A stretch of 52,348 nucleotides of DNA from a virus. The stretch covers positions 1-52,348 of the IMG/VR virus record IMGVR_UViG_3300021197_001620, one strand, 5' to 3'. The notes under the pieces were generated by a model. The model did not search any database. It had not been told where the DNA came from and saw only the letters and a list, made by a program, of their open reading frames with translations. The position numbers were made by a program, and so were the translations under genes. Shown here piece by piece: positions 1,606 through 18,966 of this stretch (the stretch's first letter is position 1; each line of letters opens with the position of its first letter).

Positions 1606-1620
1606 GAACACCCACTAAAT

Positions 1621-1660: not shown

Positions 1661-1662
1661 TA

Positions 1663-4551: not shown

Positions 4552-4741
4552 CCACACCTTCCTCCTTAATTATTATAATTGGTACAGTCTTATGATTATA
4601 AATAGTTTTATAATAATTCAATAGCTCCGGTGAGTGGTCGACTGAACAGTATTCAAACTGCTCGCCTTGCTCAATGAGTAGGTTCTTAGCACGAATACAG
4701 AAAGGGCACTCGGACCAGCAAATAATTTTAAAATACTTCAT
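4490..4741 (-). CDS. Glutaredoxin (83 aa)
   Basis: A standard single-domain glutaredoxin. The redox site is CPFC at residues 13-16 (WSECPFCIRAK), the cis-proline loop is TVPI and the glutathione-site glycines are in LIGGYTQL. Phage glutaredoxins usually supply electrons to ribonucleotide reductase; the class II reductase at 32735 is a plausible client, although RNRs of that class usually use thioredoxin. The start at 4741 overlaps the previous stop by one base. Confidence 0.9.
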   Translation of the reverse strand: MKYFKIICWSECPFCIRAKNLLIEQGEQFEYCSVDHSPELLNYYKTIYNHKTVPIIIIKEEGVDDKLIGGYTQLKQFHERGTP

Positions 4742-5010: not shown

Positions 5011-5224
5011 TATTTCTCCTAAAATGTTTAATTTGTTTATTTTGAATTGCCCATTTCTGACCTTCGATCATCACAAAAGAATAGTCTCGATCATCAGTTG
5101 ATTGCTCAACAAATAATCCAATATTGGGCGACTCTATCACTCTAAAGTTTAATGGACTATTAGGTGTCGGTGATAGAATCATCGAACCCTGCGGTATCCA
5201 CAGTAGGTCTCCTGTCTGAAACAT
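4976..5224 (-). CDS. GDLL-type SH3-like small protein (82 aa)
   Basis: It starts at 5224 after AGGAGAAGAGC. The opening MFQTGDLLWIPQGS is the GDLV-family motif with one change. A G-L-F-V strand (PNIGLFVEQS) and a YSFVMIEGQKW strand follow, then a basic tail (KHFRRNNVNKINR). It overlaps both neighbours (upstream by 65 bases, downstream by 35), an extreme case even for this compact genome. The basic tail fits nucleic-acid contact, but this is inference. Confidence 0.7.
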   Translation of the reverse strand: MFQTGDLLWIPQGSMILSPTPNSPLNFRVIESPNIGLFVEQSTDDRDYSFVMIEGQKWAIQNKQIKHFRRNNVNKINRSVQA

Positions 5225-5486
5225 GCTCTTCTCCTTTTATGTGTGTCAAATAGCCAACACTTATCATTTCAAGATCAGATAGTCTCTGGTCCATTTTTGC
5301 TAAGGTCTTACGCATCTTATCTATTAAAAACAGTGCCCCTTGCAAGTCTTCATCTGCAAGATGGCTCTCTATCATTTCCGTTTGTCTTTCTACGCTTCGT
5401 GCCTTTTCTGAGACATATGTATAAAGTTGATCTACTTCTTCTGGGACTTCACTGATGTCTGCCCCATAACTAATTTTAACTCTCAC
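5160..5486 (-). CDS. Coiled-coil protein of unknown function (108 aa)
   Basis: Translation starts at a GTG (5486) after GGAGGGAAA, giving MRVKISYGADISEVPEEV. Residues 15-85 form long helices with heptad-like hydrophobics (QLYTYVSEKARSVERQ, IDKMRKTLAKMDQRLSDL), so a dimeric coiled coil is likely. The C-terminal 20 residues are acidic and disordered, lying in the 65-base overlap with the next gene. No known family is recognised. Confidence 0.65.
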   Translation of the reverse strand: MRVKISYGADISEVPEEVDQLYTYVSEKARSVERQTEMIESHLADEDLQGALFLIDKMRKTLAKMDQRLSDLEMISVGYLTHIKGEEHVSDRRPTVDTAGFDDSITDT

Positions 5487-5500
5487 TTTCCCTCCGAGTT

Positions 5501-5758
5501 TTATAATAATTCCATAATGGCTTTAGAGGCAAGTCCGACGAAACCTAGACCAACGGTCCAGATAACTCGAGACATGTTCTCCTGCCACTGTTCAAGGTCT
5601 CGAACACGAGCGTAGAGACCAGTCTCAGGATTGTAGATGGCTTCTTTGATCGATTTAACGTCATTGATCATCTCATCCTGCTTGCTATCCATGTGCTTAA
5701 TGTTAACTGTAAGTTCCATTAATGCTTTTTGAATTTCATTCATTTCGTTCTCACTCAT
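5501..5758 (-). CDS. XhlA-like membrane protein, possible holin partner (85 aa)
   Basis: The architecture is that of XhlA-type proteins: an N-terminal amphipathic coiled coil (residues 1-45), a YARVRDLEQWQENMSR linker and one C-terminal membrane helix (VIWTVGLGFVGLASKAIM). XhlA proteins associate with phage lysis. GGAGGGAACGAAC precedes the ATG at 5758. The endolysin is about 4 kb upstream on the same strand, past GroEL. A tail or membrane anchor role is an alternative. Confidence 0.6.
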   Translation of the reverse strand: MSENEMNEIQKALMELTVNIKHMDSKQDEMINDVKSIKEAIYNPETGLYARVRDLEQWQENMSRVIWTVGLGFVGLASKAIMELL

Positions 5759-5799
5759 GTTCGTTCCCTCCGATATTTACGACATCATTGTAAATAGTT

Positions 5800-7371
5800 T
5801 CAAACTTTCACAATGGCATGTGATGTCGTAAGTAGTGTGCCTGCTGCTGATGCAGCATTTTGCAAAGCACACCTTGTAACTTTCTTTGGATCGATAACGC
5901 CTTGTTCAAAAGCATTTGTCAATTTTCTATTAAGAAAGTCATAGCAAAAGTTATCATCCGAATTAACTATCTTCTCGACAATTAAGTCTTCTGATTCTCC
6001 AGCATTTTTAGCCATCGTTCGCAAAGGCGCCTCACAGGCTCTCAGAACGATTTTAGCACCAAGGGCTTGCTCTTCGTTGTCGGTGTCCACAGAAAGGCTT
6101 CTAGCTAGTCTGAGGAGCGTTACACCACCGCCAACGATGATGCCTTCTTCCTGTGCTGACCTGACTGCTTCCAAGGCATCATCAATACGATGCTTCTTCT
6201 CAATCATCTCAACTTCAGTTGCAGCACCAACTCTAATGACAGCGACTCCAGAGGCAAGACGAGTAATTCTTTCTTGAAGCCTCTCACACTCTTGGAGATT
6301 CTCTGTTTGCTGGATCTCATTCTTGATTGCAGCAATTTGCGTATCAATCTCTTCCCAATCACCTTTACCTCCAACGATGGTTGTCCATCCTTTTGTTACA
6401 TTAATTGACTTTGCTTGACCAAAGTTGTTTAGCTTTACTTCTCGCAAAGACAAGCCTTGTTCTCGAGAAACAAATGTTGCTCCAACTGATGCACAGAGGT
6501 CCTTGAGAATGTTGCGTCGCTCTTCTCCATATCGAGGAGCACGGACAGCAGCGATCTTCATCGTTCCTCGAACCGCGTTCGCAATAAGTGCAGCAAGTGC
6601 CTGACCTTCCACGTCAGATGCAACGATAAGTAAGGGTCTCGAATCTCTCGCAGCGATTTCCAACGTCGGCATAATCTGCTCGACGACTTCAATCTTCTCA
6701 TCTGTAACAAGAATAAGTGGGTTATCATAATCTACTGTTCCGTTTCGTTGGTTGTTTATAAATTGGCTAGAAAGGTAGCCAGAATCAAATCTAAAGCCTT
6801 CTATGAGATCAAGAGTGGTTTGCATGCTACGAGCCTCTTCGACGATTACAGAGCCATCCTTGCCCGCTTTGTCAACTGCTGTTGAGACAAGGGTTCCGAT
6901 TACCGAATCGTTGTTTGCTGAGATTGTTGCAATATGTTTGATATCGTCAACCGTCTCGATTGGTCTCGACAAAGTGTCAAGTTCATCAACGATTACATCA
7001 ACCGCCTTGTTGATGCCTCTTTGCAGCTCGACAGGAGAAACTCCAGATGTCAAGTAGCGTTGTCCTTCGGTCAAGATTGCCCTTGCGAGAACTGTGGATG
7101 TGGTTGTGCCATCGCCGGCTGTCTCCACTGTTTGTTTTGCCGCTTGCTTGATGACTTGCGCTCCAAGGTTTTGGAACGGCCCGTCAAGTTCGATAAAGTC
7201 AGCAATGGTCACTCCGTCCTTTGTGAGAACGGGAGTTCCTTGCTCTTTGTGGAACAACGCCACGGTTCTTCCTCGGGGTCCGAGAGTTGCCGCGACATTA
7301 TCCGCCAAAATGTTGACCCCCTCTACAATCTCTTGATTGAGAGAAGATCCTTGTTTGTAATGTTTTTGCAT
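5800..7371 (-). CDS. groEL: Phage GroEL-type chaperonin (523 aa)
   Basis: Full-length group I chaperonin. The residue numbers of E. coli GroEL are almost kept: Asp52 in LTKDGVTIAD, Asp87 in AGDGTTTSTVLA and the ATPase Asp398 in RIDDALEAV; the glycine motif GGGVTLL follows. The C-terminal Gly-Gly-Met tail is absent. It should form an ATP-driven folding cage for phage proteins, with the GroES-like protein at 31500 as probable lid, although the two genes are 24 kb apart. Its own strong promoter lies at 7403-7431. GGAGGC ends seven bases before the start. Confidence 0.95.
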   Translation of the reverse strand: MQKHYKQGSSLNQEIVEGVNILADNVAATLGPRGRTVALFHKEQGTPVLTKDGVTIADFIELDGPFQNLGAQVIKQAAKQTVETAGDGTTTSTVLARAILTEGQRYLTSGVSPVELQRGINKAVDVIVDELDTLSRPIETVDDIKHIATISANNDSVIGTLVSTAVDKAGKDGSVIVEEARSMQTTLDLIEGFRFDSGYLSSQFINNQRNGTVDYDNPLILVTDEKIEVVEQIMPTLEIAARDSRPLLIVASDVEGQALAALIANAVRGTMKIAAVRAPRYGEERRNILKDLCASVGATFVSREQGLSLREVKLNNFGQAKSINVTKGWTTIVGGKGDWEEIDTQIAAIKNEIQQTENLQECERLQERITRLASGVAVIRVGAATEVEMIEKKHRIDDALEAVRSAQEEGIIVGGGVTLLRLARSLSVDTDNEEQALGAKIVLRACEAPLRTMAKNAGESEDLIVEKIVNSDDNFCYDFLNRKLTNAFEQGVIDPKKVTRCALQNAASAAGTLLTTSHAIVKV

Positions 7372-7402
7372 AAAGCCTCCAATGGTTATTTGTTATGTCT
7401 AT

Positions 7403-7431
7403 ATTATAACCGCTTTTGGAGGCTTTGTCAA
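7403..7431 (-). promoter_or_regulatory. Sigma-70-type promoter of groEL
   Basis: AACTTGACA, 17 bases and a perfect TATAAT stand in the gap between the upstream gene and groEL, with a predicted transcript start near 7396 and a leader of about 25 bases. Confidence 0.85.
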
Positions 7432-7432
7432 G

Positions 7433-9223
7433 TTATTTTTTAAAGTTTTCTTCGATTAATTTCTTGAGCATGGATTCAGTGACAGTTGCCGCTTTATCTT
7501 TCGCCCAAGTCTTGGACCAATTCATTTTCTTATATTCGTCTTGAGCAAAAGATTCAATGAAACCTCCAAGGTTTGACTTGATCTCATCATAGCCAGAAAT
7601 TAGAGAGTCTGCTGTTTTCATCTGATCTCGAACATTTGTAGATTGTGTGTAATTTACAGCTTCCACTTCAAGCTTTTTTGCATTTGAAAAAATTACTTTA
7701 GAAAGGTCAAGAGCTTCTGATGCTACATTCTCGTAAGATTTAGACAATAGAGAGTCCATTGTTCTTATTTGCTCTTGTTCGGCTAAGTCATCCACAACAG
7801 GGATTGTTCCAACTTTAAACAAGCCTCTGTTCAAAGCCATGGCTTTTCCTACTAAAAGATTTCCATCGTCATGTTGAAACACTTGAATTTTAGTTCTCTT
7901 TCCATTTTTATCGAGAAGATAGAAAACATCTTGATCATTTCTAGTAATTCTACTTACTCCGCAAATATAGACGGCTACGGATGATGTTTTTTGAGAGTCA
8001 TCTTTTATTCCACAAAAATAAAAAATTGTGTTAGCATCTGCCGTGTCTGCCCAAACGCCCTTACCATCCAATGATCGTTTTCCTATTTTTTGCTTTACCC
8101 CATCTAGACTAGAGTATAGCTTTTGAGAAGTAAAGATTTTCTGACTATCTGAATCATAAAGAAAGACATCACTAGCGCCTGCATCGCCTCCTACAACTTT
8201 GCCGGAAAATAGCATTGCTGAAAACGCTTCAAAAAACTTACCAGCTTCCATTGCTGATATCTCAGCAATTACCATGGAAAAGTATTTCAAAATCATACCA
8301 GCGGAAATTATCATTCCCGGATCTTTCTTTGCAATTGACTGAAGAGATTCGATAGCCTCAGAGTCTCCATTTGCAGAATCTTTGATCAAATTTGAAAATG
8401 AAATTAACTTTTTTGTTATTTGATCGGCTGTTTTTGCATCTGATTTAAATTTATTAAAAACAGATAAGGTAGCCGATGGGATTTTTCCAAATGTTCTGGA
8501 TGGTTCGAATGTGCTTTCTAGTGGCAAGTCTATGGAAGGAACGGTTACATCTGATTCATCAAAAGAGTTGAAGATTTTATTTAAATCAATAAGTTCATCA
8601 GCAGTGAGTGATTTATCTGCTGTCTTGTTTTTTAGCCATCTTTTAAATGCTGCTCTTACACTTTCAACTCTTTCATTGTCCCCAAGTGCTTGAGCTTCCT
8701 GTCTTGCAGCAATGAACATTAGAAGTGAGTGTTTTGGATTTTGTTTTAGGATTCTTTTGCCAAGAACTCGTTGGTCGACCATTAATTTGAATTTATGCCT
8801 CTTAGTACTGTTGCTTATGTCAGTTTTTGAAGGATTTGCAGGAAGAGCGGGAACATAAGTGTTATAATTTGATTTCTCATAAGCTTGTAGAATTTTGCTT
8901 TGAACTTCTGCTTGGTGTTTGGAGTAATAATAAATTTTTAATGCAGACTCAGCTCTCTTTACGTTCTCATCGGAGCTCCAGTCAGTTTCGTTAAAAACCG
9001 CCTCAAAATCCACTTTATCTAATTCATTGGCTTCTGGCTGTTGCGATGCGATTGATTTTATCGTTGCCATGGGAGTTGATGAGCGACCGCCATGAGGGAT
9101 TCCTAATTCATCTTTCACAGCATTGTCATCTTTAGTTTCAATGTCGGTAACTGGTAAGCCCTTTTCATTTAAAACCTGCTCAACCAAACCTTTCAACATT
9201 GATTCTGTTATCTTTTTGCTCAT
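7433..9223 (-). CDS. Large protein of unknown function, leader-like helices at both ends (596 aa)
   Basis: AAAGGAGATTTAGA precedes the ATG at 9223. Residues 1-20 (KKITESMLKGLVEQVLNE) match the leader shared with the lysine-rich cassette at 25-27 kb, with a possible L-N-E cleavage site. The last residues repeat the motif (VTESMLKKLIEENFKK). The middle is mostly helical; a region near 330-470 has Gly- and Asp-rich strands (GKVVGGDAGASDVFLYDS). No enzyme motif is recognised. The leader and the lysis-region position suggest a virion or prohead component, but this is inference. Confidence 0.7.
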   Translation of the reverse strand: MSKKITESMLKGLVEQVLNEKGLPVTDIETKDDNAVKDELGIPHGGRSSTPMATIKSIASQQPEANELDKVDFEAVFNETDWSSDENVKRAESALKIYYYSKHQAEVQSKILQAYEKSNYNTYVPALPANPSKTDISNSTKRHKFKLMVDQRVLGKRILKQNPKHSLLMFIAARQEAQALGDNERVESVRAAFKRWLKNKTADKSLTADELIDLNKIFNSFDESDVTVPSIDLPLESTFEPSRTFGKIPSATLSVFNKFKSDAKTADQITKKLISFSNLIKDSANGDSEAIESLQSIAKKDPGMIISAGMILKYFSMVIAEISAMEAGKFFEAFSAMLFSGKVVGGDAGASDVFLYDSDSQKIFTSQKLYSSLDGVKQKIGKRSLDGKGVWADTADANTIFYFCGIKDDSQKTSSVAVYICGVSRITRNDQDVFYLLDKNGKRTKIQVFQHDDGNLLVGKAMALNRGLFKVGTIPVVDDLAEQEQIRTMDSLLSKSYENVASEALDLSKVIFSNAKKLEVEAVNYTQSTNVRDQMKTADSLISGYDEIKSNLGGFIESFAQDEYKKMNWSKTWAKDKAATVTESMLKKLIEENFKK

Positions 9224-9224
9224 T

Positions 9225-10112
9225 CTAAATCTCCTTTAACAATTCTTTCAAATCTAAACCAGCGCAATCGATCTTGCGGTTGGTCAAATGGTAGTGGCTC
9301 ACAAAGCCCTCAAATTTGCCACTAGCGGCCTTTTTGCTCACAGTGGTGTTTGTAGACTTTGACCTGTCCAAAGGTGCCTTAAGAGGGATCCCTGTGGCTC
9401 TATTCACTGCTTTCGCAAGAGCCTGAAAGGCTTTTAGTTGTTCTGGGTAAAAACCCGTGAATGGCTTTAATCTTTTTCCATGGACTATTGCATCATCAAT
9501 GATTGGTCTCTCGCCTAATCCTTGCTTAACATACCAATCTTGATGCTTTGGATAGTAAGCGTTGGAAATCTCAACTCCGATAGATTTATTGTTCCATGTT
9601 CTAGATCCTGCGTGATAGGCAACGTCGTTGATGTCCATTGTTTGATAAATGGTTCCATCATTGTCAATCAAGAAGTGAACAGATAGTCCACGATTTTGAA
9701 GAACCTTGAAGCACGACTTAGAAGAAAGACAGACATCCCAGTGACAAACGAAAAAACTTGGCTCTCTCTTCTCGAACACTCGGCGGAAACCTTTGCGCTG
9801 CTTGAACCCATCGGACTCAAACCAAAGATTGACTTTCGGCCACTCGATGTCGAAGTACTCCGAATTATAGACAATGAAAGAGTCACTGTTGTTCTTCGTG
9901 CTTGGCATGAATGTTTCTATCTTTTCTTGCCTATCTGTGTAGATTCTCCGGTAAGTGCCGGGGCCACAAAGTCCATCAGCGGTTAGGCCTTTGGACTTCT
10001 GATATTCAACAATAGCTTCGATGAGATCATCATTAAACCTATTGCACTTAAACCACGAAGGCTCCCAACCCAATTTCTGGGCTGAGGCTTCGTTATAGAA
10101 ATACTTATCCAT
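9225..10112 (-). CDS. Endolysin: peptidoglycan-binding domain plus N-acetylmuramoyl-L-alanine amidase (295 aa)
   Basis: Residues 25-57 form a peptidoglycan-binding type 1 repeat (AIVEYQKSKGLTADGLCGPG). From about 115 an Amidase_2/T7-lysozyme-like domain follows, with zinc ligands His124 (FVCHWDV), His273 or His275 (SHYHL) and Cys283 (KIDCAGLD); Lys280 matches the catalytic lysine. It should cut the bond between muramic acid and the stem peptide. No signal peptide, so it needs a holin. TTGGAGTAGCAA precedes the ATG at 10112. Confidence 0.92.
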   Translation of the reverse strand: MDKYFYNEASAQKLGWEPSWFKCNRFNDDLIEAIVEYQKSKGLTADGLCGPGTYRRIYTDRQEKIETFMPSTKNNSDSFIVYNSEYFDIEWPKVNLWFESDGFKQRKGFRRVFEKREPSFFVCHWDVCLSSKSCFKVLQNRGLSVHFLIDNDGTIYQTMDINDVAYHAGSRTWNNKSIGVEISNAYYPKHQDWYVKQGLGERPIIDDAIVHGKRLKPFTGFYPEQLKAFQALAKAVNRATGIPLKAPLDRSKSTNTTVSKKAASGKFEGFVSHYHLTNRKIDCAGLDLKELLKEI

Positions 10113-10115
10113 TTG

Positions 10116-10835
10116 CTACTCCAAAATTTCGTCAACAAGTCCTTTCTCGATTGCTTCTTCAGCAGTCAAATAGACGTTTACTTTACGATTAATTAGTGTT
10201 TGGATCTGTCTTTTCGTCATATTTGTTTCATGACTCATTGCTTGAATGTAAGAGTCTTGCAGTCCAACGGTCTGCTCGAGTTCATTCTGCAGATTGTGAA
10301 TGTCTCCAACTTGTCCGCCGTTTACTGCATGGATCATAACACGACAGTGTTTTCCAATCTTGCGCTTGCCCTTGGTTCCCGATGCTAGCATCAAAGTTCC
10401 AGCGGACATGACCTTTCCAAGACCAATTGTCTCGATGTCGCAAAACTTCTTGCAGAAGTTGATAACATCATAGATTCCGAACATCTCATCTGCAGATCCG
10501 CCATATGTCGAAACATAAAGTTTGATTGGCTCTGCTCGTTCTGCGTCGGGGTCTTTTGTTTGAGATAAAACCAACAAAGCAGAGATCAAATCTGCTGCAC
10601 GGTCTTCGTTGACTTCTCCAACAAACATAATTGAGCGTGCTTCGGGGCTTTGTGCTCCACCTGCTCCACCACCAAGGAGATCCATCAACGTAAGTTGTTG
10701 ACCCTCTTCTTCTTCTACCACCTCTTCAGGAGCTTCTGATTCTTCTGACTCTTCTGATGAAGATTCTTCTTCAGAGATCTCTTCCTCTTCGACTTTCTTT
10801 TTAGACTTTCGTGTTTTTTTGCTTAGATTTCGCAT
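10116..10835 (-). CDS. ClpP-like serine protease with acidic N-terminal extension (239 aa)
   Basis: A ClpP fold from about residue 65: nucleophile Ser144 in GKVMSAGTLML and His169 in RVMIHAVNGG. At the position of E. coli Asp171 there is Asn220 (KVNVYLTAEEA), so the triad is altered. Residues 1-50 are a Lys/Arg tract followed by a Glu/Ser run, absent from host ClpP. ClpP-like proteins serve as head-maturation proteases in many phages, one plausible role. It overlaps the upstream gene by 35 bases and lies next to the endolysin. Confidence 0.85.
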   Translation of the reverse strand: MRNLSKKTRKSKKKVEEEEISEEESSSEESEESEAPEEVVEEEEGQQLTLMDLLGGGAGGAQSPEARSIMFVGEVNEDRAADLISALLVLSQTKDPDAERAEPIKLYVSTYGGSADEMFGIYDVINFCKKFCDIETIGLGKVMSAGTLMLASGTKGKRKIGKHCRVMIHAVNGGQVGDIHNLQNELEQTVGLQDSYIQAMSHETNMTKRQIQTLINRKVNVYLTAEEAIEKGLVDEILE

Positions 10836-11196
10836 GTTTTCTCCTAAATTGTTGTGTTACAAAGAGCTTTAATTGCTCAAAGTTTTTATATCTTATAATG
10901 TTAGTGTGCTCTGTTGGGATATGTTTCATGATCTCTGAGATCTTCCTATCTGCGAATGATTTAAACTCATTGCTGTGCAGTTTTCTCAAGTTGTCCGCTT
11001 CTGATCCTTGAATCTTGTTTGCCACTATTGTGTGTTCCAGTTGTTGCAAGCTGACTTCGTAAGCGCTCATCAACAACAAAGCATGTGTAAGCATTGCGTT
11101 TTCAAGGATTTCAGAAGAGCGAATTGTTGACGAAATAATTGTCACAAGATAAGTTAGAATCGAACCAATCGCTAAAGATAAAACAATATTCAACAT
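10801..11196 (-). CDS. Single-pass membrane protein (131 aa)
   Basis: I start at 11196 (MLNIVLSLAIGSILTYLV) because GGAGGGAATGCT precedes it; a longer reading to 11229 would enter the terminator hairpin. Residues 2-24 form one membrane helix or signal anchor. The rest is helical and basic at the end (RRKHAKSKQKNTK). It is the first gene after the promoter at 11242 and lies in front of the ClpP-like protease and endolysin. An i-spanin or holin-like lysis role is possible but unproven. Confidence 0.65.
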   Translation of the reverse strand: MLNIVLSLAIGSILTYLVTIISSTIRSSEILENAMLTHALLLMSAYEVSLQQLEHTIVANKIQGSEADNLRKLHSNEFKSFADRKISEIMKHIPTEHTNIIRYKNFEQLKLFVTQQFRRKHAKSKQKNTKV

Positions 11197-11211
11197 AGCA
11201 TTCCCTCCACT

Positions 11212-11240
11212 AAAAAAAAGAGAGGACAAAGCCTCTCTTT
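11212..11240 (-). terminator. Rho-independent terminator or 5-prime-end stem loop
   Basis: A nine-base-pair stem (AAAGAGAGG/CCTCTCTTT) with a six-base loop is followed on the minus strand by eight T residues. It begins about where the transcript from the promoter at 11242 should start, so it either ends readthrough from the haloperoxidase gene or caps the new transcript. Confidence 0.75.
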
Positions 11241-11241
11241 A

Positions 11242-11270
11242 ATTATAACATCAAACCAAAGGTTTGTCAA
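11242..11270 (-). promoter_or_regulatory. Sigma-70-type promoter
   Basis: AAATACTTGACA, 17 bases including an extended TGT, then a perfect TATAAT. It lies just after the stop of the haloperoxidase gene and should drive the lysis-region genes from 11196. Confidence 0.85.
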
Positions 11271-11279
11271 GTATTTTGA

Positions 11280-12827
11280 TTAAACTTTTATTTCAGTGCC
11301 ATCAAAACCAATGATTGTGATCTCGGTGATTGTCTCATGTTGAGTGTCGCGATGATCCTTGAACCATTGAATAGCGATTTTTTCTCCCAACAACAAACCA
11401 TTGTCTCCATCTGATCGATAGTGTACACCGGCGATGTTACGACCGATTGACATGTTGGAAGCCAACTTGTTTAACTCTCCATGGATAGTTAAGTCACCTG
11501 CATCTGCTTCAGCATAGGCAACCAAAGATCCTCCATTCAGCGAGTGAACAGGAGACAAGCCAGTTGTGGACCAAGCAGCATCTGCGAAGTAAAGTTTCAA
11601 GATTGTTGCGCAAGCACCAGCAATCGTAGCGTGACCAGCAGGATAAGATGGATGAGTTGGCGAGCCTTCTGCATATTGAATAGGCAACCAAGCTTTGTTG
11701 TCTCCACCTGCGGCAACATTCGCGGCCTTAACAGCATTCAAGGTTGAAGCACCAAGAGCGAATAAATCTGAATGGACTGTCCCAGAAGGAAGCGCACCTT
11801 CTGCCTCTTTGACGACTCGACCAGCCATGGCTTCAGGTCGAAGCTTTAAGTGCTTCTTCCATTTTTGAACCCATGCAGCTTTCAGAGCAGGGCGAGAAAC
11901 TTCAGCAACTGCGGCAGCAATCTCAGCAGCACCACCACCGGTTACAAAAGGAACTTCTTTTGCAAGAGAAGGGAATGCAGCATGTCGAGCAGCACCATTT
12001 CCAAGAAGAATTGCAGCACCATACAAAAATGCTTGATAGACAAAGTCAATGTGCACAAACGATCCAAGTTGACGGCCATTATAGATGTATCTAGGAGCTG
12101 AACTAATTGTCTGTGCGACAGGGACGTTACCCTCTTGGATAGACAACCAGTTTGACTCTGTAATTCCATAGACTCCTGTTTTGGTCGGTCCAACCTGAAC
12201 GATTGTCTGGTTTCCAAAAGGAACATCCAATAACATAAACTGACTTACATAAGGACCGACGAGTTCTCCAGCACCTTTACCTCGGAACAAAGTTTGGCGA
12301 GTTACAAATCCTCCATCTTTGGGTCCAGTAAAGTCATCACCAAAAGCGTTGAGGTTTGCAACTGCCCTGTCAGCGCCGGTGATAGAGGCTGATCCGTTTA
12401 ATTCGTGAAACGGGATATCACGAAGAAGATTTTTTTCGTAAACCTCAACCATTTCAGCAGCAGCGACTCTAGAGTTCATTGCTGGTGCTTTATCAAAGCT
12501 TACACCTTCAGGGTCTGCTCCAGACAACTCGATTGAAAGAGCTGCTTGAGGGCTTACTTGTTTTCGAACGCCTGCTTGATCAAGGGCGTCAAAATAGCTT
12601 TGTTCTCCAGTTTCGAGTCCAAGAATCAAAGTTGTAATAGAAGAAAGTTCAGCGACACCAGTTACTAGGTCGTGAGTCATTCCTTTTGCATAAAGAGCCG
12701 CAGTGTTTAGGTTCACCAAATCGTCACTTTTGATCTGATCAGGGTCAACATCGCGGGATCTGAATGCTGCTTGCAAGCCTCTTGTATCTCGAATTACTTG
12801 CGGTATGTTTTTTATAAATTTTTTCAT
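11280..12827 (-). CDS. Vanadium-dependent haloperoxidase (PAP2 superfamily) (515 aa)
   Basis: All vanadate-binding elements of this family can be placed: Lys and Arg in WKKHLKLRPEAMAGR (residues 323-337); Ser394, Gly398 and catalytic His399 in PSYPAGHATIAGA; Arg463 and His469 in GRNIAGVHYRSDGDNG. Such enzymes use hydrogen peroxide to oxidise bromide, chloride or iodide to hypohalous acid. Size and layout fit bacterial/cyanobacterial bromoperoxidases better than short PAP2 phosphatases, although phosphatase activity cannot be excluded. No signal peptide. It starts after ATGGAGATAAA and is flanked by terminators, so it is a separate unit. No obvious promoter was found. Confidence 0.88.
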   Translation of the reverse strand: MKKFIKNIPQVIRDTRGLQAAFRSRDVDPDQIKSDDLVNLNTAALYAKGMTHDLVTGVAELSSITTLILGLETGEQSYFDALDQAGVRKQVSPQAALSIELSGADPEGVSFDKAPAMNSRVAAAEMVEVYEKNLLRDIPFHELNGSASITGADRAVANLNAFGDDFTGPKDGGFVTRQTLFRGKGAGELVGPYVSQFMLLDVPFGNQTIVQVGPTKTGVYGITESNWLSIQEGNVPVAQTISSAPRYIYNGRQLGSFVHIDFVYQAFLYGAAILLGNGAARHAAFPSLAKEVPFVTGGGAAEIAAAVAEVSRPALKAAWVQKWKKHLKLRPEAMAGRVVKEAEGALPSGTVHSDLFALGASTLNAVKAANVAAGGDNKAWLPIQYAEGSPTHPSYPAGHATIAGACATILKLYFADAAWSTTGLSPVHSLNGGSLVAYAEADAGDLTIHGELNKLASNMSIGRNIAGVHYRSDGDNGLLLGEKIAIQWFKDHRDTQHETITEITIIGFDGTEIKV

Positions 12828-12837
12828 TTTATCTCCA

Positions 12838-12865
12838 TAAAAAAATGGAGGGCCTTGCCCTCCAT
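12838..12865 (-). terminator. Rho-independent terminator
   Basis: A perfect nine-base-pair stem (ATGGAGGGC/GCCCTCCAT) with a three-base loop is followed by T7 on the minus strand. It lies between the acidic protein gene and the haloperoxidase gene. Confidence 0.85.
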
Positions 12866-12894
12866 CGAATTGTTATTGATTGAATGTCAGAATT

Positions 12895-13422
12895 TTACTT
12901 ACGACGACCCAATGCTTTGTTTAATTTTGCTTCATGCAACTTGGCAGTCTTAAGACGACGAGCGACACGTTGAGCAACTTCATTTACAATCTCGCTTTGA
13001 GAAGGTTCATAAGAAACTCCTCGCAAGGCTTCCATGATGTCAGACTCAAGATCTGCATCTTCCTCTTCTTCACCAGCCATAGGCTCCATGTCATCCATGG
13101 CTCCCATCTCTTCTTCTCCTTCTCCAGCATCACCGGGAAGGATTTGATTCAACAAGTCCAATGCACTTTCCAGACCTGCTTTCGCATCTTGGATTTCTGA
13201 CTCTGGTACTTCTGCCATTGCATCGCCCATTTCATCGTCCATTGGTGCTTCAGCATCAAGATCAGCATCTGCTTCACCTTCAGGTGCGCCCATGTCGTCA
13301 CCAGCAGGAGCCATATCGGCTTCTACTTCTTCTTCGTTCATGTACATTTCATTGATTGGAGCAACATTCGCCAATTTCTGGAATCGTCGAACAACTGCTT
13401 CGTTTAAAGTTTTTTTAGCCAT
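12895..13422 (-). CDS. Highly acidic protein with leader-like N-terminus (175 aa)
   Basis: AAGGAGACCAAATT precedes the ATG at 13422. The first residues (KKTLNEAVVRRFQKLANV) form a basic amphipathic helix ending in PINE, a possible I-x-E cleavage site. Residues 28-120 are Asp/Glu/Met/Gly-rich with no hydrophobic core (ADMAPAGDDMGAPEGEAD). The C-terminus is a basic helix ending in LNKALGRRK. This architecture is common in prohead core, scaffold or head-associated phage proteins, which is my inference. It is bounded by terminators on both sides. Confidence 0.65.
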   Translation of the reverse strand: MAKKTLNEAVVRRFQKLANVAPINEMYMNEEEVEADMAPAGDDMGAPEGEADADLDAEAPMDDEMGDAMAEVPESEIQDAKAGLESALDLLNQILPGDAGEGEEEMGAMDDMEPMAGEEEEDADLESDIMEALRGVSYEPSQSEIVNEVAQRVARRLKTAKLHEAKLNKALGRRK

Positions 13423-13478
13423 AATTTGGTCTCCTTAAAATAAAAAACGTTTTTCCCTTTAAATAGGTGGGCAAACCA

Positions 13479-13512
13479 TAAAAAGACATCCTGAAACCTA
13501 AATTTCGGGATG
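13479..13512 (-). terminator. Rho-independent terminator
   Basis: A stem CATCC-GAAA/TTTC-GGATG with one internal mismatch and a six-base loop is followed by TCTTTTT on the minus strand. It overlaps the stop of the gene at 13498 and closes the unit that starts near 15229. Confidence 0.75.
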
Positions 13513-13827
13513 ATCTTCTTCAATAATGTCAAAAATGTCTTCGATATCATCACCAGACAATCCAAGCTCGTGGAGCATTTCATCGGCAACTTCTCTATCT
13601 TTTTTTGCAGCCTTAACAGATTTCTTTGAATGTTTCTCGCTGTGTTCTTTGTAGAAGTCGATGAACTGATCCATAATTGGATTTTCAGATAGGACACCAT
13701 CAGCACAAACACGAACAAACTCAGACATGCTCATGCGATGAAAGTCTAGTTTGACCTTTAGGTCCATGTGTTGCTTTTCATCCATATAGATGTAGATTCG
13801 TTTAACCGTGTTTTTCTTCTCAGACAT
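13498..13827 (-). CDS. Possible ribbon-helix-helix DNA-binding protein (109 aa)
   Basis: I start at 13827 (MSEKKNTVKRIYIYMDEK), after AGGAAAATAAA. Residues 8-50 show a strand (VKRIYIYM), a helix (DEKQHMDLKVKLDFH) and a second helix opening with MSMSEFVRVCADG, the layout of Arc/MetJ-type ribbon-helix-helix proteins. A basic linker and an acidic helical tail (DDIEDIFDIIEEDHPEI) follow. It may be a transcription regulator. The assignment rests on pattern alone. Confidence 0.6.
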   Translation of the reverse strand: MSEKKNTVKRIYIYMDEKQHMDLKVKLDFHRMSMSEFVRVCADGVLSENPIMDQFIDFYKEHSEKHSKKSVKAAKKDREVADEMLHELGLSGDDIEDIFDIIEEDHPEI

Positions 13828-13828
13828 T

Positions 13829-14248
13829 TTATTTTCCTGTGCTTCCATAGCCGCCAAAGCCACGCTCTGTTGGTGTTAGCTTATCAGCCTCAACAAAGTC
13901 AATTCTTGGGTAAGGCATAATAACTAGTTGACCGACTCGATCTCCAATTTCATATTCCTTTGCGTAAGGCGATAACGTGTATTTCAACATAATCTCGCCT
14001 CGATAACCTGAATCAATAACTCCCACGCAGTTCGTAAGAGTCTGTCCGGTCTTGTAAACCGACGACCTAGGGAACAACAAGGCAACATGCCAAGGTGGAA
14101 GCTCGATGGCAAGACCAGTCTTGTAGGTCAACGTGCCACCGTCAGCAACAACACCAACTGCAGTCAGGTCAAGCCCAGCATCGCCGGGCTTAGCATATTG
14201 TGGAATGATGGCATCAGGATGTAGTTTCTTAATCTTGACTTTCAACAT
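13829..14248 (-). CDS. dut: dUTP diphosphatase (139 aa)
   Basis: All five trimeric dUTPase motifs are present in order: GDAGLDL, PRSS, GVIDSGYRGE, RVGQLVI and the C-terminal RGFGGYGSTG that closes over the active site. It hydrolyses dUTP to dUMP, preventing uracil in DNA and feeding the ThyX-type thymidylate synthase encoded at 30104. I use the ATG at 14248 with GAGGA just before it; an in-frame GTG at 14257 is less likely. It overlaps the upstream gene by 20 bases. Confidence 0.95.
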   Translation of the reverse strand: MLKVKIKKLHPDAIIPQYAKPGDAGLDLTAVGVVADGGTLTYKTGLAIELPPWHVALLFPRSSVYKTGQTLTNCVGVIDSGYRGEIMLKYTLSPYAKEYEIGDRVGQLVIMPYPRIDFVEADKLTPTERGFGGYGSTGK

Positions 14249-14513
14249 CTTCCTCACCTGTGTTTTGATCTAAGTCGGACGCATCTTCACCTTTTTCTTG
14301 AAGAACTTTGACTAACGAGTCGAACTTTACGAACGACTGTTGTAAAGCGTTCATTGATGTTTGCATCTCTTCTTTGGTCATGTCCTCATAGTCTTCTCGC
14401 TCATATGACTCAAGATAGGCGTTGAAGCATTGACTGATTGCATATGCTGCAATCGCAAGATCACCATTTGTCAACAATGGTGTATCAGTATTTTGTTCAT
14501 TTGTCACTTCCAT
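14229..14513 (-). CDS. Acidic helical protein of unknown function (94 aa)
   Basis: AAGGAGACTAAA precedes the ATG at 14513. The product has a Thr/Asn-rich start, a central helical region (LAIAAYAISQCFNAYLESYE) and a strongly acidic end (DLDQNTGEEDVESQD) that lies in the overlap with the dUTPase gene. No motif or membrane segment. Unknown. Confidence 0.65.
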   Translation of the reverse strand: MEVTNEQNTDTPLLTNGDLAIAAYAISQCFNAYLESYEREDYEDMTKEEMQTSMNALQQSFVKFDSLVKVLQEKGEDASDLDQNTGEEDVESQD

Positions 14514-14514
14514 T

Positions 14515-14718
14515 TTAGTCTCCTTGTGTTAGTGAAATTGATGGCGCACGTTGGATGTAATCAACTGCGCTTTGTATGTTTGTAAATTGTGTAGTGATCG
14601 GCTTGTCTCCACTCATAAGAATAATGATGTGGTGACCAGATCTCTTGATGGACGTAATGTTGTCTACATTGATTGCAATGTCCACATCTTCGTAACTTCT
14701 AAGTTGTATAAATCTCAT
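14515..14718 (-). CDS. Small FlbD-like beta-strand protein (67 aa)
   Basis: CTTGGAGTCAAA precedes the ATG at 14718. The sequence MRFIQLRSYEDVDIAINVDN, then ITSIKRSGHHIIILMSG, then a loop and a C-terminal helix (IQSAVDYIQRA), follows the strand-strand-strand-helix order of small FlbD-type proteins. The similarity is structural by eye. It overlaps the upstream gene by an ATGA-type junction. Function in the phage unknown. Confidence 0.6.
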   Translation of the reverse strand: MRFIQLRSYEDVDIAINVDNITSIKRSGHHIIILMSGDKPITTQFTNIQSAVDYIQRAPSISLTQGD

Positions 14719-14912
14719 TTTGACTCCAAGTATCTTATTGCCTCATCGGCTTCGGTTATCACTTTTGTAAGTTTGATAATCTCTTCTACAATGTCTGGAT
14801 GTTGTCCAACACCGGAATAGCCCGTAAGGTAAACATCAAGGTTTGCTTCGGCACGAGCCTTCACCGCTTCGTAGTGAAGCAGTGCGGCTTGAATTAAAGA
14901 GTCTCCTGTCAT
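14715..14912 (-). CDS. Helical protein of unknown function (65 aa)
   Basis: GGGAGTTGGACA precedes the ATG at 14912, which overlaps the upstream stop. Two helices (DSLIQAALLHYEAVKARAEA and VEEIIKLTKVITEADEAIRY) are separated by a Gly-rich turn, suggesting a helical hairpin. No recognised motif. Confidence 0.65.
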   Translation of the reverse strand: MTGDSLIQAALLHYEAVKARAEANLDVYLTGYSGVGQHPDIVEEIIKLTKVITEADEAIRYLESK

Positions 14913-15229
14913 TGTCCAACTCCCTTGCCTTTTAGTGCCTCGACCATGTCAATTAATTGAGACATGTCCGTGTCGTCTTTTGCAAGTCGGTAAGCCTTGA
15001 CTGCAAGAGAGATCTCTCCTTTTGTAAGCCAACCGTTCTCGACATAGTTTGCCTTCAGGTCGCGCTTCTGGTCTTTGTAGGGCTCCATAGCATCCTCAAG
15101 AGACTTCATGCTCTCAAGATATTCCGCCATGTGCTCTTCTGTTGTCTTTGCATCATCCGCCTTCTGCACGATTGCGATCTGATCCATTGGTGTTGTGGCA
15201 TTGATGCCTTGTACGAATTCAAAACTCAT
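14909..15229 (-). CDS. Helical protein of unknown function, first gene of a unit (106 aa)
   Basis: GGAGGAATT precedes the ATG at 15229 and the promoter at 15262 lies just upstream, so this is the first gene of the unit ending at the terminator at 13479 (including dUTPase). The product is almost wholly helical, with charged repeats (EEHMAEYLESMKSLEDAMEP) and a segment YVENGWLTKGEISLAVKAYR that looks like a conserved winged or helix-turn-helix-like core. I do not recognise a named family. Confidence 0.65.
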   Translation of the reverse strand: MSFEFVQGINATTPMDQIAIVQKADDAKTTEEHMAEYLESMKSLEDAMEPYKDQKRDLKANYVENGWLTKGEISLAVKAYRLAKDDTDMSQLIDMVEALKGKGVGQ

Positions 15230-15261
15230 AATTCCTCCGTTGTTGTTTTGATTATAATGTA

Positions 15262-15290
15262 TTATAACATGTTAAAGTTCATCTGTCAAG
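15262..15290 (-). promoter_or_regulatory. Sigma-70-type promoter
   Basis: AAATACTTGACA, 17 bases ending in TGT, then TATAAT. It overlaps the end of the methyltransferase gene and drives the genes from 15229. Confidence 0.85.
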
Positions 15291-16222
15291 TATTTTTTGC
15301 AATATAGATAAACGATTTCTTCTTTGGACACGCAAGTTGCCCCTGTTGAATACTTGTAGATACTCTCATAGTCAAGCGATCTCAAGCGTTTTGTCAACTC
15401 TTCTTTGGTTAATTCATCGTTGTCGATGTTGATGAACCGATGTGTTCTTGTGCTCCTTGAATTAAAGTTCTTTGGATGCACTTTTCCAACACCACTTCCA
15501 TGGGTGCAAATAGCGATGTCAACGCCTTTTGGAACATCGGCAGGGCGTTGACTAAAGGAGTCCTTTAAAAGGCCTACAATCTCCTTACGGAGCCCTTTAT
15601 CGAGACCTTTCGCAATTATTTGAGACGCAATAGATTCAAAGGTCACCTCAGACGTTGTTGCAAACGAGAAGTCTGAACAAGATGTCCGCTTCTTAGGATC
15701 AACCCTTAATTCAGCGCGTCTTTCCCACACTTGAAAAACCGTCGAAACGACTTTGCCGTCACGTTCGAATCTGAAGGTTTCATCCAATAGATCTTCTTGG
15801 TGGATCAAGTGTAGGTGTGGATCGATCTGGCGTATCTGAGTTATCTTTGCCATTGAGGCAGGAAGGATGAAAGCGATGTAGTCTCCAGTCTTTGCGCAAT
15901 GGTTCATGAATGCTTTCGCAAGTTTGCCCATACGTCCAAATGGTGGGTTTCCAACATAGAGAGTCTTTCCTTTGACCTCGCCAACATCATAAGTCAGCCA
16001 GTCGTCGATTTCTTGCACAGAGTCGTGCATTGGTTCAATGTCATAAGCCTCGTCGACTTGCAGTCCGATGTCTAGCCATGCACCATCGCCAGCACTTGGC
16101 TCTATGGTTCGTGTTATGGTTGGATACCATTCTTGCCATCGTAGCCACTCTCCTAGTCTTCTTGCTGTTTCATAGTTCGTGAAGAACTGTTCGTTGTTAA
16201 TGTTTTTACGCTGCGTTGTCAT
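15272..16222 (-). CDS. Adenine-specific DNA methyltransferase (316 aa)
   Basis: The SAM-binding motif EPSAGDGAW (residues 41-49) and the catalytic motif GNPPFG (91-96) identify an N6-adenine methyltransferase of the NPPF type. Residues 100-150 complete the Rossmann-like domain (DYIAFILPASMAK). The C-terminal 170 residues resemble no target-recognition domain I know. It overlaps the unknown gene upstream (16206) and belongs to a unit with a promoter at 17145. With no recognisable restriction partner, protection of phage DNA from host restriction is the simplest role. Confidence 0.85.
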   Translation of the reverse strand: MTTQRKNINNEQFFTNYETARRLGEWLRWQEWYPTITRTIEPSAGDGAWLDIGLQVDEAYDIEPMHDSVQEIDDWLTYDVGEVKGKTLYVGNPPFGRMGKLAKAFMNHCAKTGDYIAFILPASMAKITQIRQIDPHLHLIHQEDLLDETFRFERDGKVVSTVFQVWERRAELRVDPKKRTSCSDFSFATTSEVTFESIASQIIAKGLDKGLRKEIVGLLKDSFSQRPADVPKGVDIAICTHGSGVGKVHPKNFNSRSTRTHRFINIDNDELTKEELTKRLRSLDYESIYKYSTGATCVSKEEIVYLYCKKYLTDEL

Positions 16223-17117
16223 TTATACTCTCCTCTAAGATTGCTGCTAATTGTGGACACCTTTTCATGAAATCTTCCTCTTCCATTTGAGCAAAGTCAA
16301 TGTTGAATGAAAAAAGTTCTTTGATCAGTCCTCGCTTGCACAAGACAGGCAGGAATGCTTTGTCGATTTTGATCCCTCTTGTAAACGAAGTGCTTGCAGC
16401 ATCCTCGCCATCTTTCTTTTTCTTCTTCTTTTCTCTGTTAATCAGGACGATCAATTGTCTCTCTAAACCACTAGACTTGGTCATATCTGATTTGTCTTTT
16501 AGGTTTGAACCATGAAACACCAGTTGACCAGCTTCTTCGGCTTCTTCTTCGGAAGCTTCGAATAGATCGGTAAACTTTGAAATCTTACCTTCGGCTAAAT
16601 AGACATGACACTTCTGATGTTTTGGAGAAAAAGTCAGCAACAAAACTTGACCGAAGTCTGGGTGATTGCCAGTAACTACTCCATTGTAAACAGAGCCGTC
16701 TGCGTCATTGTGTAGGTAAATTTGATTAACACCATCGCTTGTGGAGGTCTTGAAACTCTCGGCATCCACCAAAGTCAAAAGACTACCATCAATTTTGAAT
16801 AGGTAAACATCTGCAGATGACACAATGGTGTCGGATGTTTTCACCACCTTTTTGAATTCTTTGAAGTCAGAAGCTCCTACTAAACTAAAGTCAAATTCGA
16901 ATCCTCGATTGATGGATCTCTCGATTGATTTGTTGGTCAAGCAGACAAAGCCTAAGCCTTGCTGATCAAGAACTTCGTTCGAGAACTGTTCGGCATTCAT
17001 CTCGACCATAACACCACCTGCTTGCGCAGAGTCTGTGGCTACTTTTGGGATGATTGCGTTCTCCAGTGCTCTTTTGAATATACTCATGTTGTTCATAAAT
17101 AAGGTTGATAATTTCAT
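16206..17117 (-). CDS. Unknown protein, gene-paired with the methyltransferase (303 aa)
   Basis: GGAGGATTT precedes the ATG at 17117; the promoter at 17145 is 28 bases upstream. The N-terminal two-thirds are beta-rich (DVYLFKIDGSLLTLVDAES, QVLLLTFSPKHQKCHVYLAE). A lysine run (EKKKKKKDGE) separates a helical C-terminal part (IDKAFLPVLCKRGLIKELF). No nuclease motif is evident. The only firm clue is genetic coupling (17-base overlap) to the methyltransferase: accessory subunit, inhibitor or unrelated. Confidence 0.65.
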   Translation of the reverse strand: MKLSTLFMNNMSIFKRALENAIIPKVATDSAQAGGVMVEMNAEQFSNEVLDQQGLGFVCLTNKSIERSINRGFEFDFSLVGASDFKEFKKVVKTSDTIVSSADVYLFKIDGSLLTLVDAESFKTSTSDGVNQIYLHNDADGSVYNGVVTGNHPDFGQVLLLTFSPKHQKCHVYLAEGKISKFTDLFEASEEEAEEAGQLVFHGSNLKDKSDMTKSSGLERQLIVLINREKKKKKKDGEDAASTSFTRGIKIDKAFLPVLCKRGLIKELFSFNIDFAQMEEEDFMKRCPQLAAILEESINDNAA

Positions 17118-17144
17118 AAATCCTCCGTGATTGATTATGTTTAT

Positions 17145-17173
17145 AATATAACATGCCCAAGACGATTTGTCAA
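17145..17173 (-). promoter_or_regulatory. Sigma-70-type promoter flanked by an inverted repeat
   Basis: CCCTTGACA, 17 bases ending in TGT, then TATATT. Unlike the others it has CATGCCC in place of AAATAC before the -35. CATGCCC and GGGCATG form a seven-base inverted repeat around the -35 region, which may be an operator. Confidence 0.8.
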
Positions 17174-17201
17174 GGGCATGAAGTCATTTTTTTTGAGATT
17201 T

Positions 17202-18635
17202 TTATTTGAGTGCTCGATAGATAGCAATCATGTTTTTTCTAGTTGGATGGGTTTCAACGGTCTTTTGTTTCGTCCAATTTGGAATTGACTTTGAAAAGTA
17301 ATTTCCACTAGACATTTTAAACTCAGAGCCTGGTGTGACCTTTTCTACAATAGACACAATCTCTGGTTCAGTAAAGTAAATTGGATTTCCCTTCTCGAAA
17401 CTTCTCGGCTGAAATCCGATCTTTTCAGAAATAGCCAAATAGGCTGAATGGTGGTTTTTAAACTTTTGTCTGTTGGCAGCAATGGTTGGCTTAGATGTCA
17501 AAGACTTAATTGATTTCCGGAAATCAATGCCTTTATCATCAACAAATGTTTTTAAAATATTGTCCCATGTGTAAATAAGGAGTGTTTTTTCTACAAATTT
17601 GCCATCTCCGGATTTAAACTGGGGCATAAATGCAACCTTCCTAACAACACAATTAATCCACGGGTTACTATAATCATAGATGTTTTCAATCTTGAGAGTT
17701 TCAAGTTGATTCAACCTATGTTGATTTAGAGACTCGAGATCTGCTGTGGATTTAGCGACATACATTATTGCATCAATCTGGCCTTGATTGGGCGGAACGA
17801 ATTTTGTTTCCGCTACAAGACTTAGTCTCTTTCTTGTTGCGCCCTTTAAGACCTTAGTCATTGCATTGGTTGACGATGCTGCTATAAAAGCACCATTTGT
17901 CCAGCCGTTTAATTGCTCAGTAGAAACATTAAAGAAAGCCTGTGCTTTTTCGTAGATTTCATTTTTTGTTACCGAAGCAATGACATCTACTTTGAAATCA
18001 TCTTGAAATGCTTTAGTCACAATCTCTTCTTTCGCACTAGTTTGAAATTGATATCCCAACTCTGTTAATTTATCATAAGCCTCTTGACGAATAGCTTTGT
18101 GTTCGGTTGAATCCTTGACCCTTGTTTCCCAGTTGTTATAATTTCTGGCTTTGCGGGCTTGTAAATTCATTATAGCATCTTCTTTTGAAGCAATCTTTTG
18201 TGCTCGATGTTTGTTGTTTTCAATTTCTTTGAAATCATGCATCATCTCTTCATTGTCAAATTCTACAACGATGCAGGGAATAAGACTTTGCTCTTCATCA
18301 TTTTCTATAGAAATTTCATGAATAGCTTCTGTTCTATGGTGGCCTGTAACTTTACGGAATATTGGAACCATAGAATCCCAAATCACAATAACTGCTTCAG
18401 ATAGACCTGATGCTTCGATTTGTTGTTTTATTTTTTGCTTATGTCCTTTGTCCAGATCTTTGGCTCTGACTTGACCTGATCGATCTTTGGAGATCTTATC
18501 ATAGTCAATCATTGCACCGCAGATGACTCTAGCATCACTATTTTCCTCAAAGTAATCTAGATCGTTTGAATAGTTTTTTGAAATGTCGAAAACTGACTCT
18601 ACGTTGGATAGGGCATTTAATTCTTGTTTTGTCAT
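17202..18635 (-). CDS. ParB-like N-terminal-domain protein (477 aa)
   Basis: Residues 40-140 resemble a ParB/Srx fold: DYDKI and an interaction loop, DSMVPIFRKVTGHHRTEAI with the GxxR-type nucleotide-binding box, and PCIVVEFDNEEMM. The remaining 330 residues are helical and basic with no recognised domain. ParB-fold enzymes bind CTP or act as nucleases or ATPases. In phages they often accompany DNA modification genes, as here next to an adenine methyltransferase. It lies between its own promoter (18704) and that of the next unit (17145). Function is inferred at fold level only. Confidence 0.65.
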   Translation of the reverse strand: MTKQELNALSNVESVFDISKNYSNDLDYFEENSDARVICGAMIDYDKISKDRSGQVRAKDLDKGHKQKIKQQIEASGLSEAVIVIWDSMVPIFRKVTGHHRTEAIHEISIENDEEQSLIPCIVVEFDNEEMMHDFKEIENNKHRAQKIASKEDAIMNLQARKARNYNNWETRVKDSTEHKAIRQEAYDKLTELGYQFQTSAKEEIVTKAFQDDFKVDVIASVTKNEIYEKAQAFFNVSTEQLNGWTNGAFIAASSTNAMTKVLKGATRKRLSLVAETKFVPPNQGQIDAIMYVAKSTADLESLNQHRLNQLETLKIENIYDYSNPWINCVVRKVAFMPQFKSGDGKFVEKTLLIYTWDNILKTFVDDKGIDFRKSIKSLTSKPTIAANRQKFKNHHSAYLAISEKIGFQPRSFEKGNPIYFTEPEIVSIVEKVTPGSEFKMSSGNYFSKSIPNWTKQKTVETHPTRKNMIAIYRALK

Positions 18636-18669
18636 TATAACTCCTTGGTTTTTGACTTAATGTTCCTCG

Positions 18670-18685
18670 CCTCACTTCAGTGAGG
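18670..18685 (-). promoter_or_regulatory. 5-prime untranslated hairpin
   Basis: A perfect CCTCAC-TGAA-GTGAGG hairpin lies a few bases after the predicted transcript start of the promoter at 18704 and 33 bases before the ParB-like gene. No T tract follows, so it is more likely an mRNA-stabilising stem or a protein site than a terminator. Confidence 0.5.
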
Positions 18686-18703
18686 TCTTACTGGGATGTT
18701 TAT

Positions 18704-18732
18704 AATATAACATGCTATGGCATGCTTGTCAA
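18704..18732 (-). promoter_or_regulatory. Sigma-70-type promoter
   Basis: AAATACTTGACA, 17 bases with GCATG-CCATA-GCATG and a final TGT, then TATATT. It overlaps no gene, follows the stop at 18740 and drives the ParB-like gene. Confidence 0.85.
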
Positions 18733-18739
18733 GTATTTT

Positions 18740-18964
18740 TTAGTACTTTATTCCATCAATGATAATTTCTTCGGGTTCTCGACAATATTGATCCCAAATC
18801 CACTGCCTTATTGATTCTATTGGAGCGAAGGTGAAAAGCAGGGCTTGGCGCCCTGTCTCATACTCGCAAACTATATCTTCGATGTCTGGGCGATAAAATG
18901 AGATAAACGACATGTTATCACATCCTGGTGCCCAGAACACCGTTACATCAATTCTTTCTGGCAT
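18740..18964 (-). CDS. Small protein of unknown function (74 aa)
   Basis: I start at 18964 (MPERIDVTVFWAPGCDNM), after GGGGTGAGC at the end of the polymerase gene; a longer in-frame reading would lie wholly inside that gene. The product is rich in Trp, Tyr, Phe and acidic residues (DIVCEYETGRQALLF, SIRQWIWDQYCREPEE). It is translationally coupled to the family C polymerase, so a replication role is possible. No motif is known. Confidence 0.6.
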   Translation of the reverse strand: MPERIDVTVFWAPGCDNMSFISFYRPDIEDIVCEYETGRQALLFTFAPIESIRQWIWDQYCREPEEIIIDGIKY

Positions 18965-18966
18965 GC

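Follow-up and report, generated by a model that had tools for sequence, protein, structure and literature searches.

A tailed-phage contig carries a predicted vanadium-dependent haloperoxidase gene representing a distinct phage clade

RESULTS AND DISCUSSION

The haloperoxidase gene and its surroundings

The DNA analyzed (the window), a linear piece 52,348 bases long, comes from an IMG/VR virus record. Its minus strand carries an open reading frame, with an ATG start codon and no internal stops, for a predicted vanadium-dependent haloperoxidase (V-HPO) (Table 1). The initial annotation had proposed a 515-residue frame here, and both its coordinates and its length were exact. The phage context assumed at the same time was borne out by the origin of the record and by genes for a tape-measure-like protein, a DnaB-like helicase, a UvsX/RecA-like recombinase, PolIII alpha, and an endolysin-type amidase; further genes encode a class II ribonucleotide reductase, GroEL, and a ClpP-like protease. 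No close DNA to the first 25 kb of the window was found among cultured phages. The V-HPO contains few cysteines (a single one in the window copy) and no N-terminal membrane segment, and a simple hydropathy and motif test agreed with the earlier statement that it lacks a signal peptide.

Table 1. Features of the haloperoxidase locus (positions in the window) and other phage members of the family
Feature	Position	Strand	Evidence or remark
V-HPO gene	11280..12827	minus	open frame, 515 aa; phmmer to PDB V-BPOs, E 4e-52; AlphaFold2 pLDDT 92.1; Foldseek TMq 0.90 to 1qhb
W319 codon, position engineered as R396W (7qvw) and R425S/D (8q21, 8q20)	11871..11873	minus	phmmer alignments and structure titles
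K322 codon, predicted vanadate-ligand Lys (Lys of QKF in Corallina V-BPO)	11862..11864	minus	alignment; invariant
R330 codon, predicted vanadate-ligand Arg	11838..11840	minus	alignment; invariant
A397-G398-H399 codons, predicted vanadate loop, Ala replacing canonical Ser	11631..11639	minus	alignment
R463 to H469 codons; R463, predicted vanadate ligand, and H469, predicted axial His	11421..11441	minus	alignment
Terminator-like hairpin directly upstream of the V-HPO gene	12844..12866	minus	10 pairs, 6 G-C, T run
Terminator-like hairpin directly downstream of the V-HPO gene	11217..11240	minus	9 pairs, 4 G-C, T run
Putative sigma-70-type promoter just after the V-HPO gene, reading away towards the ClpP-like and amidase genes	11242..11270	minus	12/12, TG before -10
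V-HPO phage members besides the window			L002, L003, L004, L084, L085, L086, L087, L092, L093, L108, L109

Identity and predicted fold

The only phmmer matches of the 515-aa protein were structures of vanadium-dependent bromoperoxidases (V-BPOs), which aligned over residues 85 to 514 with E values of 4e-52 to 4e-44, the best being that of Corallina (1qhb). The AlphaFold2 model, built with 30 homologues, had a pTM of 0.93, and all 12 Foldseek matches in the PDB with E values of 0.001 or less were V-BPOs (TMq 0.84 to 0.90), with Curvularia-type and Streptomyces-type V-HPOs far weaker. Superposition on known structures, which the initial annotation had suggested as a check, thus placed the predicted fold with the algal V-BPOs (TMq 0.85 to 0.90). 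An acid phosphatase without the vanadate pocket, the case named there as refuting the assignment, was rejected on both fold and residues, acid phosphatases being matched over about 100 columns with E values above 0.3; nor is the protein a compact PAP2 domain devoid of the V-HPO halves, since it has the V-BPO fold over its 515 aa. Taken together, the alignments and the model support assignment of the gene to true V-HPOs of the bromoperoxidase type known from algae and bacteria, with halogenation as its predicted activity.

The profile search proposed earlier gave a divided result: PF01569 (PAP2) was indeed found, as the sole Pfam match, with a score just under the cut-off (26.7 versus 27.2 bits). 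NCBIfam and PHROGs gave no match to the window V-HPO. These outcomes account for V-HPO genes being unnamed in phage annotation and define a blind spot, since with Pfam just below its cut-off and NCBIfam lacking a matching model, a phage V-HPO is missed.

The phage protein shares with the algal V-BPOs of Corallina (1qhb and 1up8) and Ascophyllum (1qi9 and 5aa6) the two-half architecture and the Lys/Arg/Gly-His/Arg/His pocket with its neighboring His, whereas it is only about 26 to 29% identical to them (structural alignment), is shorter, is phage encoded, and has Ala for the pocket Ser. The Acaryochloris marina V-BPO (5lpc) resembles it in fold, in pocket, and in the native Ala of the HPSYxAGH loop, and differs in overall sequence (27% identity in the structural alignment) and in having Arg425 at the W319 position, where the wild-type Corallina enzyme also has Arg. 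A predicted-structure library of viral proteins contained giant-virus proteins with the V-HPO fold and no phage protein. These PAP2/V-HPO-like proteins of Sylvanvirus (A0A3G5AI90), Hokovirus (A0A1V0SGK0), and Yasminevirus (A0A5K0U6L7) share the predicted fold (TMq 0.77 to 0.93) but belong to eukaryote viruses, an unrelated viral lineage, and are 24 to 30% identical; BFVD names them only as uncharacterized or PAP2.

The vanadate pocket

The predicted ligands K322, R330, G398, H399, R463, and H469 aligned with the corresponding residues of 1qhb and 5lpc, with H392 beside them, and all seven positions were invariant in the 12 phage copies and the 79 closest cellular copies, except for one alignment gap at H469. 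The initial annotation had considered every pocket residue to be in place, which held for the six ligands and failed for the canonical Ser. The Ser394 named there is the Ser of HPSY, while the true position (HPSYG-S-GH in Corallina) is occupied by Ala397. Similarly, of the Lys and Arg placed in the string KKHLKLRPE, the Arg is correct (R330), whereas the Lys predicted to bind vanadate, K322 in WVQ-K-W, precedes that string by a short distance. The A. marina enzyme of known structure naturally has Ala at the pocket-Ser position (HPSYG-A-GH), as do 54 of the 79 cellular relatives; given this residue in 5lpc, Ala397 does not exclude membership in the V-BPOs.

The position of W319 is the one altered, according to the structure titles, in variants of the V-BPOs from C. 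pilulifera (7qvw, R396W) and A. marina (8q21 and 8q20, R425S/D). Trp as a phage-specific change was rejected, given its presence in all 79 of the closest cellular relatives.

Phage relatives

At least 11 further phage contigs with a V-HPO 47 to 61% identical to the window copy were found in alignment-based scans of IMG/VR; such scans were required, a single-sequence scan of viral contigs having given no matches. Cellular copies in GTDB species were at most 42% identical. No profile score above 438 bits was obtained in some 1,180 additional genomes of three phyla, as compared with 609 to 925 bits for the phage records scored; a profile used for this comparison had been made from seven of the phage copies themselves. 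None of three different V-HPO copies queried had a match among the cultured phages of INPHARED.

The contigs represent several types of tailed phage. L108 and L109 carry T4-type portal, protease, and capsid genes, with a capsid 70% identical to that of cultured jumbo phages, and on these genes are T4-superfamily jumbo phages. L003, L086, and L087 are mutually related (L003 and L086 share 57% capsid and 42% terminase identity) and, named by gene content, are podovirus-like, while siphovirus-type head and connector genes occur in L002/L004 and in L085. Beyond the V-HPO, the window has two proteins in common with L084, a small one and a UvdE-type endonuclease; apart from these and weak ClpP-like and DnaB similarities, nothing else was common to the window and the other V-HPO phage records. 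L085 and L087 encode V-HPOs 80% identical, yet the former, with its siphovirus-type connectors, and the latter, with its portal and terminase, had no other detected protein in common, within the limits of the short L085 contig (6.7 kb), a pattern which points to exchange of the gene between phages.

In L002 (3450 to 5964) and L004 (4634 to 7413), both genes flanking the V-HPO gene are 67 to 73% identical, with only 31% identity between the capsids, as if three genes had moved together. A dedicated partner gene of the V-HPO was considered and rejected, the upstream protein of L002 and L004 being found elsewhere only in L110, whose contig ends within it.

Several contigs were set apart from this family, all with long branches and an uncertain place in the tree: L088 (43% identity), a GC-rich contig with no clear phage genes nearby, and L089 to L091 (31% identity, 408 aa). 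The latter three, whose contigs also carry dCTP-deaminase-like and tail-like genes, encode a second, shorter V-HPO type that has the canonical pocket Ser, and perhaps represent an independent acquisition.

L086 originates from a freshwater lake virome, that of Lake Soyang (PMC7553992), and therefore the family is not only marine. A literature search covering few subscription journals found no paper on phage V-HPOs, so that the family is likely, though not certainly, new to the literature.

Phylogeny and selection

A rooted maximum-likelihood tree was built from 88 sequences, including ten phage copies and an algal/cyanobacterial outgroup, with 200 bootstrap trees. L108 and L109, found later, are absent from it; they are 73 to 75% identical to L092 and L093. 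The ten phage copies formed one clade with full support (100/100, and 200 of 200 bootstrap trees), nested inside the bacterial V-HPOs, whereas all 79 closest cellular sequences fell outside it. Monophyly of the phage copies was the phylogenetic check that the initial annotation had asked for, and its central claim, a phage-encoded V-HPO, is thus backed by sequence, predicted structure, and phylogeny. The neighbors of the clade were two bacterial proteins (99/93), with the uncertain contig L088 lying between; in a separate tree they were named as those of the Verrucomicrobiota MAGs L005 and L015. The stem of the phage clade is long (0.79 changes per column), which leaves room for an altered specificity.

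The V-HPOs of bacterial MAGs and genomes (Verrucomicrobiota, Acidobacteriota, Cyanobacteriota, and Actinomycetota) have the same pocket, Trp included. Unlike them, none of the ten phage copies tested carries a Tat-like N-terminal motif, which was present in 52 of the 79 cellular relatives. The dN/dS values between phage copies were 0.11 to 0.18 (pairs at 59 to 95% identity), indicating that the protein has been kept for its function. Together with the phage neighbors and the nested clade, these values describe a gene that is phage-borne, host-derived, and under selection, as expected of an auxiliary metabolic gene (AMG). Like phage AMGs in general, it encodes a host-derived metabolic enzyme with a patchy distribution across phages; we know of no AMG with V-HPO chemistry, and the literature search revealed none.

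Placement and transcription signals

Eight of the 12 copies lie in late structural or lysis regions: seven in the head-to-tail structural region (L002, L003, L004, L085, L087, L108, and L109) and that of L086 just after lysis-type genes. The copies of the window, L084, L092, and L093 are located among non-structural genes. Counted by lineage, about half of the placements are structural, and no significance is claimed for the excess in late regions. In cultured jumbo phages related to L108, variable genes occupy the place behind the major capsid gene, so that position alone says little about membership in the virion.

The two hairpins flanking the gene are the strongest minus-strand terminator-like matches within positions 1 to 20000 and lie on the gene's own strand, in agreement with the earlier description of a separate unit between two terminators. 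No sigma-70 site of 10/12 or better was found directly upstream of the gene, whereas many early-type units of the window have sites of 11 or 12 out of 12; nor was a T4-type late promoter (TATAAATA) found near it. The hairpins and the missing upstream sigma-70 promoter fit late expression of the V-HPO but do not prove it.

Near-perfect promoters of the TTGACA-N17-TATAWT type directly precede minus-strand genes at 37433, 36020, 31841, 24944, 18732, 17173, 15289, 11270, and 7431, a series which suggests early transcription by a host sigma-70-type RNA polymerase. The expected start of the promoter just after the V-HPO gene falls within the 5' arm of the downstream hairpin, which could therefore end one transcript and be incomplete in the next. 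On the other side of the gene (12828 to 12866, minus strand), CTCCAT in the 3' arm of the upstream hairpin is also complementary to an ATGGAG immediately preceding the V-HPO start codon, and this pairing is a possible translation or read-through switch.

Proposed history and mode of action

In V-HPOs, the axial His binds vanadate, which activates hydrogen peroxide so that halide is oxidized by two electrons to hypohalous acid. This acid halogenates organic compounds or, if further peroxide is present, yields singlet oxygen. Because phosphate competes with vanadate for the site, the enzyme may lack haloperoxidase activity within the cell. The intact pocket and the lack of an export signal are most simply read as those of an enzyme that would be produced in the cell and would work once lysis has occurred or on the particle, in surroundings poorer in phosphate and richer in halide.

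Our preferred explanation, to which we assign a probability of roughly two in three, is that of a genuine V-HPO captured once from bacteria, deprived of its export signal, spread from phage to phage, expressed late, and acting outside the cell or on the virion. The analysis itself shows the homology to V-HPOs, the predicted fold, the residues of the pocket, the purifying selection, the monophyly of the phage copies, the lack of a signal, and the genomic placement; from these we infer the single capture, the signal loss, late expression, vanadate loading, halide oxidation, and the site and target of action. The donor would have been a bacterial V-HPO lineage, Verrucomicrobiota being the nearest sampled. 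The Tat export signal would have been lost after capture, in the phage rather than in the bacterial donor, although some cellular relatives may lack it too. The gene would then have moved as an accessory among unrelated tailed phages, mostly into the late (capsid-tail-lysis) region. Apo-enzyme would be produced late in infection, set free at lysis or carried away with virions, and loaded with vanadate where phosphate is scarce; with chloride or bromide and hydrogen peroxide it would form hypohalous acid, consuming peroxide and halogenating or oxidizing nearby organics. The explanation is limited by its basis in metagenomic contigs without isolates or known hosts and by a placement that is not uniform.

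More tentatively, with odds a little short of even, tailed phages may use this virus-specific family as an extracellular oxidant generator, virion-borne or released by lysis, that changes the chemistry round the infected cell by halogenating matrix or signals or by removing peroxide. Sequence cannot choose among peroxide removal, halogenation of signals or matrix, and action on competitors.

A rather doubtful alternative would make the enzyme a virion component, in or on the particle (capsid decoration or fiber region). As the phage adsorbs, it would oxidize or halogenate signals or the polymers on the surface of the cell or biofilm. The location of the gene between head and tail or fiber genes in four lineages favors it, as does the cassette-like arrangement in L002 and L004, where the V-HPO gene abuts one that is 73% identical, followed by one at 67%. 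Nevertheless, those cassette partners are not beside the V-HPO in other phages, four of 12 placements are non-structural, the post-capsid slot is variable in cultured jumbo phages, and no virion-targeting signal was recognized in the protein.

Unlikely, in our view, is a cytosolic peroxide sink or stress enzyme shielding the infected cell or the replicating phage DNA from hydrogen peroxide. The lack of an export signal, the single Cys of the window copy, and the chaperone, protease, and nucleotide genes alongside in the window, L092, and L093 would suit such a role, but cytosolic phosphate should compete with nanomolar vanadate, and hypohalous acid and singlet oxygen would be harmful in the cytosol. 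Phosphatase or another PAP2-superfamily activity, with phosphate replacing vanadate in vivo, seems improbable: apo-V-HPOs can show phosphatase activity and the sole Pfam match is PAP2, just under its gathering score, but the architecture and fold are those of a full-length V-BPO, the similarity to acid phosphatases is confined to a short stretch at insignificant E values, and residues specific to V-BPOs are conserved beyond the PAP2 core as well. An origin of the gene in bacterial contamination or in a chimeric contig is scarcely credible, for although every source is a metagenomic assembly, there are twelve contigs, with terminase, portal, capsid, connector, and tail genes as neighbors, and the phage clade excludes every one of the closest cellular sequences.

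From hydrogen peroxide and salt, V-HPOs make bleach-like oxidants. Enzymes that halogenate influence water and sediment chemistry and destroy signals of bacteria. A V-HPO clade peculiar to phages, spanning T4-superfamily jumbo, podovirus-like, and siphovirus-like phages, would extend the effects of phages on their surroundings to halogen and peroxide chemistry. Judged from its residues and relatives, the window gene is a real example of that clade and an intact member of the V-HPO superfamily. The intact pocket, the few cysteines, and the absence of an N-terminal membrane segment make the enzyme readily testable with standard assays.

Neighboring genes

Two genes of the window were read as ClpP-like: that at 10116 to 10835 has a clear Clp protease match, and that at 38784 to 39389 was so assigned since there are proteins in other phages that each match both genes. 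Around the V-HPO genes of L092 and L093, translations indicated a cluster of ClpX-, IF3-, S21-, Hsp20-, ClpS-, and GMP-reductase/IMPDH-like genes. Near the window V-HPO gene, the products of 7433 to 9223 and 12895 to 13422 have N-terminal motifs like ITESMLKGLVEQVLNE and LNEAVVRRF and no family match, and resemble virion or internal head proteins that undergo processing. In L084 (7364 to 9067 and 12165 to 12590), the V-HPO gene lies among those for small proteins starting with MKxIKLYEEFxxE, which resemble T4 internal-head capsid-targeting sequences.
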